Origin: Melioribacter roseus
GTDB lineage: Bacteria; Bacteroidota; Ignavibacteria; Ignavibacteriales; Melioribacteraceae
DNA length: 64,000 nt
Reading direction: 5' to 3'
Assembly (NCBI GenBank): GCA_020722065.1
Contig: DYLK01000012.1
Coordinates: forward strand, 1 to 64,000
In this document: one piece after another, positions 19,913-23,772 of the stretch
Numbering within the stretch: position 1 is the first letter of the stretch
How the letters are laid out: each line of letters starts with the position of its first letter
Position numbers and translations under genes: made by a program
Notes under the pieces: model-generated
The model's input: the letters and a program-made list of their open reading frames with translations, nothing else
What the model was told of the DNA's origin: nothing
The model's database searches: none

Positions 19913-21274
19913 TTATTCATCAATTTGAGGCAAATCGGCAAAATATCTGAAAATTGTTTCTTCAGGAAGTTGATAATCTTCCATCTTATTATTCAAATAT
20001 GTTTCGAACGAAGCCAAATCTAAAAATCCGTGTCCAGATAAATTAAACACAATCGTTTTGCCTTCTTTGGTTTGTTTACATTTTTCAGCTTCAATCATTG
20101 CGGCTTTTACGGCATGCGCACTTTCGGGGGCGGGCAAAATTCCTTCAGTTTGCAAGAATATTTTTGCAGCATCAAATACTTCGATTTGCTTGAAACTCAT
20201 GGCTTCAATCATATTGTTTTTTAGAAGATTTGAAACTGTTGGAGCCATTCCGTGATAACGTAAACCACCAGCGTGAATTGCAGGAGGCATAAAATTATGT
20301 CCCAAAGTGTACATTTTTAGCAAAGGAGTATAACCAGCTGTATCGCCAAAATCATAAGCGAGTTTTCCACGAGTTAATGTTGGACAAGAAGAAGGTTCAA
20401 CGGCAATCACTCGCAAATCTTTTTTTGTCCCAGATAGTTTATCTCGCAGAAAAGGAAAACTTAAGCCTGCAAAATTACTTCCACCTCCAGCACTAGCAAT
20501 GATAATATCAGGATAATCGCCAACTTTTTCAAATTGCAAACGTGTTTCTTCGCCAATTATTGTTTGATGAAGCATTACATGGTTCAAAACGCTACCAAGA
20601 GCATAATTTACATCTGGATTTGAGGCTGCAAGTTCTACTGCTTCGCTTATCGCAATTCCTAAAGAACCTGGGGAATCTGGATTTTCTTCGAGAATGGCTT
20701 TGCCTGAATTTGTTCGATTTGTTGGCGAAGCATAAACATTTGCTCCGTGTAATTGCATTATTGTTCTTCGATATGGTTTTTGATGATAACTAACTTTTAC
20801 CATATATACTTCTAATTCCATTCCAAAATGATTTGTTGCGATTGATAACGCACTTCCCCATTGACCAGCTCCTGTTTCGGTAACAAGTTTTTTCACACCT
20901 TCTTGTTTATTATAATATGCTTGAGCAACTGCTGTGTTAATTTTATGACTTCCGGCTGGATTTGCACCTTCGTATTTATAATAGATTTTCGCTGGTGTTC
21001 CAAGCAATTTTTCTAATCGAAATGCTCGATAAAGTGGTGTCGGGCGACTTAATGAATAAATTTCTCGCACTTCTTCTGGAATATCAATGAATCTCTGTTG
21101 CGAGACTTCTTGTTCAATTAACGCATTTGGGAAAATTGCAGCCAAATCGTTGGGTGAAATTGGTTGCTTTGTCGCTGGATTTAGCGGCATTGCAAGCGGG
21201 GTTGGTAAATCGGGCAAAATGTTATAGTATTTGCTCGGCATTTCTTTTGTTGATAGATAAATTCTGTTATCCAT
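19913..21274 (-). CDS. trpB2: Tryptophan synthase beta chain, TrpB2 type
   Basis: PLP enzyme that condenses indole with serine (TrpB2 may also use phosphoserine). PLP-binding Lys111 lies in [24 protein letters not shown] follows, and a glycine-rich phosphate loop [11 protein letters not shown] lies in the middle. The 453-residue length, the N-terminal extension and the RPTPLYRA context distinguish TrpB2 from the roughly 400-residue TrpB1 that pairs with TrpA. No trpA or other trp gene is adjacent. A ribosome-dependent attenuator lies directly upstream, which ties its expression to charged tRNA-Trp and supports a role in Trp supply. Confidence 0.95.
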
Positions 21275-21301
21275 TTGTTACTCCATATTTTATTGTTAGT
21301 T

Positions 21302-21385
21302 AAAAAAAATAAAAAAAAAGCCGTGTTTTTTTGACACGGCTTTAAAACAAGAAAGCCGTGAACAGCTTCCACTATTCACGGCTAA
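21302..21385 (-). promoter_or_regulatory. trp attenuator: mutually exclusive hairpins
   Basis: In transcript order (minus strand): hairpin A, AGCCGTGAA (21383-21375) with TTCACGGCT (21362-21354); hairpin B, CACGGCTTT (21360-21352) with AAAGCCGTG (21343-21335); hairpin C, AAAGCCGTG (21343-21335) with CACGGCTTT (21325-21317), then a T-run. B shares strands with both A and C, so A+C (termination) and B (read-through) exclude each other. The loop of A holds GTGGAAGC (21372-21365), an exact 8-base complement of GCTTCCAC (21416-21409) just after the leader Trp codons. Ribosome stalling at Trp would expose that segment, disturb A and favour B. All pairings are read from sequence; the mechanism is inferred. 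Confidence 0.85.
21311..21343 (-). terminator. Intrinsic terminator of the trp leader
   Basis: Nine-base perfect stem AAAGCCGTG/CACGGCTTT with a 9-base A-rich loop, followed by six more T, an A and another eight T on the minus strand. It ends 37 bases before the trpB2 ATG, so termination here would abort the trpB2 message. Confidence 0.88.
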
Positions 21386-21400
21386 AATTTATAATTTACC

Positions 21401-21469
21401 TTAGAAGAGTGGAAGCGAACTGTTCCACCACCAAGATTTTGTTACGATATTTTTCATTTCTATTTTCAT
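21401..21469 (-). CDS. trpL: trp leader peptide with three tandem Trp codons
   Basis: Short ORF of 22 codons plus TAA. Starting at ATG 21469 (a second in-frame ATG is at 21457), it contains KSWWWNSS: three successive TGG codons at 21433-21425. Its stop lies 18 bases before hairpin A. The bases after the Trp codons form segment 2 of the attenuator: TTCCAC (21414-21409) can pair back with GTGGAA (21428-21423) overlapping the Trp codons, or its extended form with the loop of hairpin A. Three Trp codons in 22 in front of a Trp-synthesis gene are hard to explain by chance. The upstream ribosome binding site is weak. Confidence 0.85.
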   Translation of the reverse strand: MKIEMKNIVTKSWWWNSSLPLF

Positions 21470-21522
21470 TGGTGCAATTTTAATAAAGGTTTTCAGTTTT
21501 TCCAAATATTTTTTAATTTTTC

Positions 21523-22812
21523 TTAAAATAATTTTGATGAGTTATCCGAATTAGTTGAAATATATTTTTCAACATCAAATTTTCGTTTTGCTCCTCCTAA
21601 ATTCATAAATCGAATTTTCCCAAAAACTGCTCTTTCGTTCCAAGCTCGGTCGTGAGTTCCGCCAATCGACCACGAAATTCCCGCATAACCATTTGGATCA
21701 CGACCGTCTAAACTATATTTATCATTCAAATAAATTGCAGTTTTCATTGCTGTTTCTGGTGAATCTGTCCACTCTAAAATCTTTTTTGCCCAATACATTC
21801 GTAAATAACCGTGCATTTTTCCTTTTTCTTTCATCTCAAATTGAGCTGCATTCCACAATCTATCGTGAGTTTGCATATTTTCAAACTGTTTTATAGAATA
21901 CACAAATTCGCGTTCATCTTTTCTATGTAAATTCAAACTTTCTTTTGCCCATTGAGGAAATCCTTCGAAAGAATCGTAATTGGGATTGTAAAAGCAAAAA
22001 TTTTCAGCCAATTCTCTCCGAACAATCAATTCTTCTAAAAAACTCTCTTTTTTATCTTTTGAAATAGAGGAATTTTCGACATCGAGCGCAATTCGTTGAG
22101 TGGAAATTTGTCCAAAATGAATATATGGCGACAAATCTGAAGTTGCCGCAAGATTCGGATTATTTCGCTTTTCGGGATAATCAGCAAGTTTTTCGGTGAT
22201 AAATTTTGCAAGAATTTTTTTTGCTTCTTCTTCATTCGGAAGAAAATTATGAATTGGCTTTACAGAAAAATCGATTTTCAGCGAATTTTCAATTTCTTTC
22301 CAATTTATTGTGAAATGAATATCAAACTTTGGAATTGGATTGATTTTGGGGAAATCAATAAGATAATCGAATAGCAATCTGTGAATTTTTGGTCGCAAAG
22401 TATAAGCCGCAAATTCCATTTTCCGAGATACAAACTGAACTGGGACAATGTTCGAAGCATCAATTTCACAAATATTTATGTTTATTTTATTTGCCACTTG
22501 CTTTTTCCAATTCATTACTATTTTTAACGGATTAAAATCAGTTACTAGCGTTTCAACTTGTAATTCTTCAATAAATTTGGGAATATTTTCTTCGGGTTTT
22601 CCAAGCAAAATCTGAAATGGAATGTTCAAGTCAAGTAATTTTTGCTCGACGAAACGTAATCCTTTCAGCATAAAATCATATTGGCGAAAAGTAGCTTCCA
22701 AAAAATTTGGGACAAGATTAAACACAACAACTAATGGTTTTTGATTTTGTAAAGCAAGTTCAATTGCATAAATCAAAGCCCAATTATCTTCTACTCGTTG
22801 ATCACGTTGCAT
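21523..22812 (-). CDS. phr: Class II CPD photolyase, N-terminus interrupted by a stop
   Basis: FAD enzyme that repairs cyclobutane pyrimidine dimers with light. The class II C-terminal signature is clear: YLNDKYSLDGRDPNGYAG, WSIGGTHDRAWNERAVFG and KIRFMNLGGAKRKFD. The listed start is the first ATG after an in-frame TAA (22854-22852). The natural start is probably ATG 22881 (7 bases past the stop of the DMT gene), because the intervening codons read ...PERIKY-stop-KKSDKKGEIIAYWMQRDQR in the same frame as the enzyme, a typical class II beginning. No alternative GTG or TTG lies after the TAA. The product from 22812 would lack about 23 residues of the antenna domain's first strand. Function is therefore uncertain. 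Confidence 0.85.
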   Translation of the reverse strand: MQRDQRVEDNWALIYAIELALQNQKPLVVVFNLVPNFLEATFRQYDFMLKGLRFVEQKLLDLNIPFQILLGKPEENIPKFIEELQVETLVTDFNPLKIVMNWKKQVANKININICEIDASNIVPVQFVSRKMEFAAYTLRPKIHRLLFDYLIDFPKINPIPKFDIHFTINWKEIENSLKIDFSVKPIHNFLPNEEEAKKILAKFITEKLADYPEKRNNPNLAATSDLSPYIHFGQISTQRIALDVENSSISKDKKESFLEELIVRRELAENFCFYNPNYDSFEGFPQWAKESLNLHRKDEREFVYSIKQFENMQTHDRLWNAAQFEMKEKGKMHGYLRMYWAKKILEWTDSPETAMKTAIYLNDKYSLDGRDPNGYAGISWSIGGTHDRAWNERAVFGKIRFMNLGGAKRKFDVEKYISTNSDNSSKLF

Positions 22813-22887: not shown

Positions 22888-23772
22888 TTATAAAAATAGT
22901 AGAGCAACCCCCGAAACAGCAACAATTGCTCCAATAATTGATTTTGAACTTAATTTTTCTTTGTAATAAAAAGCAGAAATCGGCAACATAATAATTGGAA
23001 CTGTGGAAATTAGAGTTGCAGCAATTCCAACATAAGTATGCGAAATTGCAAACATTGACATTGTTATTCCTAAAAATGGTCCCAATATGGAAGCAACAAT
23101 CGCTAAATAAAAAGCTGTTTTGTCATTTCTGAAAATTCGAATCGGATTTTTAATTTTCCCACTTAATCTAAAAATTATATACATAATTATTGTTGATGAT
23201 GAAAGCCGAACAAACGCCACAACAAATTCATTTATCGGAGCAATATTAAATGCTTCTTTTGCAAAAATTAAACCGACAGCTTGTCCAAGTGAGGCAATAA
23301 TTCCAAATAGAATTCCTTTAATATTAATTTTAGAATCATTTTGAGATAGATTTTTTTCCATCACTACAATTCCAACACCAAGAATTGTGAAAAAAATTCC
23401 AATAATAGCAGTGAGAGTTATCACTTCTCCAAGAAAAATGAAAGCTAAGATTGCCGAAATCGGCGGAGCAAAAGACATTATTAGCATTGCGATGCGAACA
23501 CCAATCAATTCAAATGATTTAAATAATGCAGTGTCGCCAATAATTAGCCCAACTACTCCGCTTAAAACCAGAAAAGTAAATTGTGTTTGCGATATCGAAA
23601 AATCGGCACCAATAATTAGAATTGTAACTATCAACATTATCGAAGCCAAAAACATTCGTGTAATGTTAATCAGAATATTGCCAATTCTCTTTGCCGCTTC
23701 AGCAAGAAACACAGCATTTATTGACCACAAAAACGCTGTTGTAATTGCGGCAATTTCACCTATAAAAAGCAT
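22888..23772 (-). CDS. DMT/EamA-family transporter
   Basis: 294 residues with ten hydrophobic segments in two EamA repeats (about 5-135 and 150-290). Typical features are the early FLWSINAVFLAEAAKR, the end of each repeat with a small-residue-rich helix (LGEVITLTAIIGIFFTILGVGIVV, KEKLSSKSIIGAIVAVSGVALLFL), and a central linker. Members export or import small metabolites; the substrate is not predictable. Its stop is 7 bases from the original photolyase ATG, so the two look co-transcribed. Confidence 0.88.
   Translation of the reverse strand: MLFIGEIAAITTAFLWSINAVFLAEAAKRIGNILINITRMFLASIMLIVTILIIGADFSISQTQFTFLVLSGVVGLIIGDTALFKSFELIGVRIAMLIMSFAPPISAILAFIFLGEVITLTAIIGIFFTILGVGIVVMEKNLSQNDSKINIKGILFGIIASLGQAVGLIFAKEAFNIAPINEFVVAFVRLSSSTIIMYIIFRLSGKIKNPIRIFRNDKTAFYLAIVASILGPFLGITMSMFAISHTYVGIAATLISTVPIIMLPISAFYYKEKLSSKSIIGAIVAVSGVALLFL

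Follow-up and report, generated by a model that had tools for sequence, protein, structure and literature searches.

A predicted ribosome-mediated tryptophan attenuator with an exchangeable second gate upstream of a stand-alone trpB2 gene in Melioribacter roseus

Results

The trpB2 gene of Melioribacter roseus lies on contig DYLK01000012.1 (assembly GCA_020722065.1), of which positions 1 to 64,000 were analyzed; this whole 64,000-nucleotide stretch is called the window below, and its leader features and trpB2 are on the minus strand. The gene (19913-21274), which is the presumptive target of control and appears to stand singly, encodes a 453 amino acid TrpB-like PLP enzyme that matches the NCBIfam models NF009057 (723 bits, cut-off 366) and TIGR01415 (651 bits, cut-off 518.85). 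In the direction of transcription it is preceded by a promoter-like box, a short leader ORF and two hairpins, A and then C. The photolyase gene upstream (21523-22812) ends 53 nt before the leader AUG, and a DMT-type transporter gene (22888-23772) lies two genes upstream of trpB2; the similarity of its product to the aromatic amino acid exporter YddG is weak (27.5 bits against a cut-off of 300).

The leader ORF (MKIEMKNIVTKSWWWNSSLPLF, 21401-21469) has 22 codons, with its stop codon at 21403-21401, an alternative in-frame AUG at 21457, and three consecutive and conserved UGG Trp codons at 21425-21433. The promoter-like box TAAAATTG (21475-21482) lies 5 nt 5' of the leader AUG and differs at one position from TAnnTTTG, which we take to be the Bacteroidota -7 box consensus. 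An in-frame leader start is found 4-8 nt 3' of an exact TAnnTTTG in 16 of 35 leaders (single-base shuffles give a mean of 0.2 and a maximum of 3), and at the same spacing from a box with at most one mismatch in 27 of 35 (shuffles, mean 3.1 and maximum 8); control intervals shifted by 20 nt give 0 exact boxes and 0 with at most one mismatch, and those shifted by 40 nt give 0 and 4. Since the box sits so close to the leader starts, the leader mRNA is probably almost leaderless, with its AUG nearly at the predicted transcription start. Loci L106 and L109 have a tRNA-Lys gene whose end lies 5 and 7 nt, respectively, upstream of the leader AUG, and in L150 a tRNA-Asn gene stops 30 nt short of it, so these three leaders may be transcribed from the tRNA promoter.

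Six strands of the leader region have alternative partners. Strand 1 (GGTGGAA, 21423-21429), which covers the last Trp codons, pairs with strand 2 according to the fold and the permutation test given below. Strand 2 (GCTTCCACTCTTC, 21404-21416), immediately 5' of the leader stop codon, can pair either with strand 1 or with strand 3 (GAATAGTGGAAGC, 21365-21377), its antiterminator partner, which comprises the 5' side and loop of hairpin A. The 2:3 helix has 12 pairs in 13 positions with one mismatch (duplex energy -18.2 kcal/mol) and includes the complementarity of GCTTCCAC (21416-21409) to GTGGAAGC in the loop of A. Strand 4 (CACGGCTTT, 21352-21360), conserved and forming the 3' arm of the terminator-like hairpin A (3:4; 21354-21383, followed by TTCTTGTTTT), has strand 5 (AAAGCCGTG, 21335-21343) as its alternative partner (helix B, 4:5), and strand 5 can pair instead with strand 6 in a predicted second intrinsic terminator, C (5:6; 21311-21343), with a 10-bp stem (21343-21317) and then a long T run. 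The folding energy of the 211-nt leader region is -54.8 kcal/mol (z = -5.5), which none of 200 shuffles equals, and a terminator scan of 21250-21650 finds three terminator-like sites, all on the trpB2 strand (0.1 in shuffles): A (21383-21354), C (21343-21317) and a third that overlaps A. Because both the fold z-score and the terminator sites exceed the shuffles, a chance origin of the leader fold is unlikely. The window thus has a tandem-Trp leader ORF, mutually exclusive 1:2, 2:3 and 3:4 helices and an intrinsic terminator, which are the sequence features that place it among the ribosome-mediated Trp attenuators. A preliminary description of this DNA had already reported the 22-codon ORF with its three Trp codons, and the pairings A, B and C are exact as it wrote them; its complement of 21416-21409 in the loop of A is also found, in a helix of 12 pairs and not 8. 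It did not mention that A itself scores as terminator-like or that the Trp codons are a further partner of strand 2.

The family was searched for TrpB2 relatives across 79 genomes, and the 30 best loci were examined. A WW or W.W leader ORF lies upstream at 27 of these 30 closest family loci; the exceptions are L085 (W-R-Q-W, with the rest intact), L086, whose contig ends 43 nt upstream, and L099, which has lost the Trp codons and keeps hairpin A with its T run (lost regulation or a diverged loop). None of 12 more distant family trpB2 loci (L111-L122; a TrpB2 fragment of genome G038 was left out) has an element of the window's type, and 9 of the 12 have no Trp leader at all, which, like the Trp-less hairpin of L099, counts against the attenuator reading. 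Three of the 12 that belong to one genus (L112-L114) have a different WW(W)LSC leader upstream of trpB2, whose stop codon lies inside a GCTTTCC/GGAAAGC hairpin without a T run and which is perhaps translational or Rho-linked. With the photolyase gene so near and on the trpB2 strand, the hairpins could in principle terminate its transcript, the WWW ORF being incidental; conservation of the leaders before TrpB2 in many genomes and the promoter-like box at the leader start argue against this, and we consider it very improbable.

Pairing was examined across relatives in 28 family leaders (the 30 loci less L086 and L099) and, in the permutation sets, in 36 leaders made up of these 28 and 8 from outside the family, with the mis-parsed strand 2 of L167 left in. 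In the 36, the mean energy of 2:3 duplexes is -17.1 kcal/mol within loci and -13.0 (sd 0.5) with permuted partners, and that of 1:2 duplexes is -10.7 and -9.3 (sd 0.3), respectively, with 0 of 5000 permutations as good in either case; the rows are related by descent, so that permutation tests of this kind overstate independence and their figures are not probabilities of independent events. Across the 28 sequences, pairing in the inner six 2:3 pairs reaches 99.4%, and 11 cells carry double changes (0 of 500 shuffles as high). One of these is the window's own compensated change from C-G to U-A; the pair-type count for the six is not above that of shuffles. The predicted helices 1:2 and 2:3 are, at the level of sequence comparison, supported beyond conservation. 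Covariation support for hairpin A is more modest and mixed: 95.5% of its cells are paired, a level that 1 of 500 shuffles attains, and 2 of 500 shuffles reach its five double-change cells, but as many double-changed pairs as its two occur in 41 of 500 and as many pair types in 489 of 500.

In the relatives hairpin A looks like a terminator and not just a relay, because a run of at least 5 T directly follows its stem in 31 of 36 leaders (all except L106, L109, L110, L162 and the window). The window's T run is interrupted (TTTCTTGTTTT), so here A may be a weaker terminator, and a relay role may fit it better than it fits its kin; the terminator scan accepts the window's A all the same. In equilibrium folding hairpin A beats the 2:3 helix even with strand 2 free. 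The switch would therefore have to be kinetic, the 2:3 helix forming before strand 4 is made, and attenuator switching is usually held to be so.

The region downstream of A differs among the relatives. Strand 5 of the window and its close kin is a repeat of strand 3 (GCCGTG) and, paired with strand 6, makes up terminator C; the 5:6 pairing holds at 180 of 207 positions in 23 loci, and 109 of 5000 permutations are as good. In another clade strand 5 is instead GCCGTGAAC..., complementary to the Shine-Dalgarno and start region of trpB2 (over 10 bp, for example, in L098 and L104). Own-locus duplexes between strand 5 and the ribosome binding site average -8.8 against -6.9 (sd 0.4) when permuted, with 0 of 5000 as good; of the 36 loci, 15 have both a GTGAA in strand 5 and a GTTCA in the ribosome binding site, 20 have neither, and one (L162) has GTGAA alone, with another stretch pairing with the ribosome binding site over 10 bp. 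Shared ancestry could explain part of this association. L103 does not fit cleanly with either type of strand 5, and no strand 5 was found in L096, L097, L100 and L105, where the predicted hairpin A alone must do the work. Judged from these pairings, the relatives offer three second-gate variants: a terminator (the window and its near kin), sequestration of the trpB2 Shine-Dalgarno sequence (the other clade), or none.

Successive exclusive pairings are a feature of the enteric his leader, and complementarity for a second pairing choice of that type (4:5 against 5:6) is present here, with covariation for 5:6 and none for 4:5. The 4:5 pairing holds at 242 of 288 positions in 32 loci, and 3082 of 5000 permutations are as good. 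Such a result would be expected if A and C were tandem terminators of which only A is regulated, by 2:3 against 3:4, with C a leaky back-up and B a by-product of similar stems that perhaps arose by duplication. Strands 3 and 5 and strands 4 and 6 are near-copies, from which the complementarity of B follows automatically, and in five kin (L082, L083, L087, L089 and L090) strand 6, and not strand 4, provides the partner for the outer base of strand 5. Against this, an unrelieved C would block trpB2 even under starvation, and all 32 loci with a strand 5 keep at least 5 of the nine standard pairs with strand 4, including those of the L094 and L098 type, in which 4:5 is 10-11 bp and 5:6 is weak; tandem terminators without a B step seem to us unlikely, if a good deal less so than the photolyase reading. 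In L090, strands 3, 4, 5 and 6 are all altered together.

Of the 30 family leaders, 28 were used to build a covariance model, R1. It matches 34 of the 79 family genomes and 41 of 391 genomes of the class at E up to 0.01; these counts include the genomes from which it was built and many weak matches that are plain terminators. R1 finds eight elements outside the family (E 5.2e-7 or better), in other families of the class, each directly before TrpB2 and seven of them with a Trp leader ORF. The exception is L162, where the hairpins and three UGG codons remain but the reading frame from the preceding stop codon to those codons contains no ATG, GTG or TTG; an unusual start codon, a sequencing error and decay are alternatives. 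In a draw of 395 genomes from the phylum R1 matches 10 at E up to 1e-4, all of one order, and in 18 named records it gives one weak match (L183, E 0.034).

Other R1 matches were set aside. Those that score about 30-40 bits and come from a different family within the class (L169-L172 and L174-L178) are T-run hairpins without a WWW leader at the match, as are those at L156, L157, L173 and L179; at L178 the scan caught an unrelated upstream WW ORF, which is not counted, and L158, L159, L168, L180 and L182 were likewise left out of the element count. Eight of these loci (L169-L171 and L174-L178) share a similar hairpin, CCGCGGATA...TCGCGG or TCCGCGG plus a T run, with no Trp codons at the match; the gene downstream is MsbA-like in L169, and the genes at the other seven share similar N-termini.

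In seven genomes, weaker R1 matches are WWW leaders that precede trpE-type genes; the best model for all seven genes is anthranilate synthase component I, with three above its cut-off and four within 4% below it. These loci (L150-L155 and L181) have a WWW or WWWW ORF, CGGTGA or CAGTGA near its stop codon and a complementary stretch in the terminator loop, with the trpE-type gene next, and are Trp operon-type leaders from the same family or order as the window. Four of the seven (L150, L151, L155 and L181) were scanned for an Rfam leader, and none matched. Among 80 named loci scanned by script, of which L013, L053, L071 and L077 were also read by eye, L077 (a Bacteroidales MAG, JAIPAH010000198.1) carries MFHIAQNTNWWWLILQKALCR and a T-run hairpin rich in GC upstream of its TrpB2; it has no Rfam match at gathering score and no R1 match.

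In the window's host, whose genome is rated 100% complete, trpB2 is the only TrpB-type match at E up to 0.001, and no match was found for TrpA, IGPS/TrpC or a second TrpB (TrpB1). No 16S gene was detected in its assembly, by a search that succeeded in 9 of 14 control genomes. The other four genomes of the genus, two of which are only 77% and 85% complete, likewise have no IGPS and no TrpA above cut-off. In other genera, TrpA and IGPS are both present in at least two relatives that bear the attenuator (genomes G001 and G050).

Discussion

Trp genes elsewhere use T-box (tRNA-binding), TRAP-type (protein-binding) or metabolite riboswitch leaders. No T-box is matched in the window at gathering score or in the leader at E up to 10, and the Trp codons and the 1:2, 2:3 and 3:4 strands account for the conserved parts of the element, so that a leader of any of these kinds is scarcely to be expected here. 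Combined attenuation of transcription and translation is named in the title of PMC9226507.

The leader shares with the enteric trp leader (trpL) a tandem-UGG leader ORF, strands 1:2, 2:3 and 3:4 and an intrinsic terminator, and differs from it in its single trpB2 target, its second downstream gate and an AUG almost at the predicted transcription start. The preliminary description had also drawn a contrast with trpL; the lone trpB2 target remains a difference, but the extra hairpin has a precedent in the enteric his leader, where, in the part of PMC1183508 available, one lies between the pause hairpin and the terminator. Unlike that of his, the intermediate hairpin of the window's family is itself terminator-like, and its second gate varies between relatives. 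Nor is such a leader without precedent in the phylum, although the preliminary description knew of none documented for the group: Bacteroidetes have a Bacteroid-trp leader that is listed in a table of PMC2864571 and discussed in PMC6414381 (available portions). The window scores 23.5 bits with that model (RF01692, cut-off 49 bits) and has trpB2 as its target, and RF01692 has no match in 20 related loci. The trpB motif (RF04312) is also a leader RNA with a terminator and antiterminator that occasionally precedes trpB; in the accessible part of PMC11109978 it is described from Firmicutes and Fusobacteria, mostly before an ABC transporter, and the window reaches 20.8 bits with it (cut-off 59 bits). 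Actinobacterial trp attenuators have double or triple UGG codons, and one is predicted before a gene named trpB2A in Corynebacterium diphtheriae (PMC1262725, as far as available); they differ in phylum and in their operon target. An Rfam scan of the window at gathering score gives just a tRNA, and in a permissive scan of the leader nothing reaches its cut-off. A literature search on attenuation and leader peptides in Ignavibacteri- found no paper, no title listed by further searches describes the window's element, and the available portion of PMC4833913 contains nothing on it. The element is very probably a classical ribosome-type Trp attenuator that, as a sequence family, falls outside the Rfam cut-offs, precedes a stand-alone trpB2 and has an exchangeable second gate. 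Trp attenuation in general is textbook knowledge; the window's version of it, the target gene and the exchangeable second lock appear to be new.

It is highly likely, on the strength of the comparisons above, that the element is a ribosome-mediated tryptophan attenuator controlling trpB2. The proposal builds on what can be read from the genomes, namely the Trp codons, the predicted 1:2, 2:3, 3:4 and 5:6 helices, the terminator-like sites, the target gene and their conservation, and from these we infer translation, stalling, the kinetics, the share of termination due to A itself in the window, the B step and the response to Trp. With ample charged tRNA-Trp, the ribosome would pass UGG UGG UGG to the stop codon and mask strand 2, hairpin A (3:4) would form and could terminate transcription, and polymerases getting past A would then meet terminator C (5:6). 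With Trp scarce, the ribosome would stall on the Trp codons and cover strand 1, strand 2 would pair with the emerging strand 3, and A would be blocked; strand 4, now free, could then form B with strand 5, whereupon C would fail too and trpB2 would be transcribed.

The ribosome-dependent attenuator of the preliminary description is in this respect supported, the Trp codons and compensatory pairing being kept in relatives. Its test, set beforehand, was a search of related genomes for a Trp-rich ORF with compensatory changes, and this gave the ORF at 27 of 30 loci and covariation for 2:3, 1:2, 5:6 and, modestly, A. As to its idea that an extra hairpin relays the signal, A often seems to be a terminator in its own right (31 of 36), B is without covariation and the relay to C would be inferential.

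TrpB2 makes Trp from indole and serine, and the host enzyme most likely does so with imported indole. Because TrpA, TrpB1 and TrpC are undetectable in the host, it is probably a Trp auxotroph whose indole salvage is under the control of the attenuator. A fuller picture, which we offer tentatively and hold with less than even confidence, is of two gates in series under one leader peptide, the second gate being exchanged between relatives while the sensor stays unchanged; starvation would relieve both gates through 2:3 and then 4:5, and in the window's Trp-auxotrophic genus this would amount to starvation control of indole salvage by a leader made from an almost leaderless mRNA.

The finding would extend textbook Trp attenuation to a stand-alone TrpB2, and it suggests that the job of TrpB2 here is a response to Trp starvation (indole salvage), including in hosts that lack the rest of the pathway. 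The family would also offer a natural series, with a terminator, a Shine-Dalgarno lock or neither of them under the control of one sensor, that can show how expression platforms are swapped.
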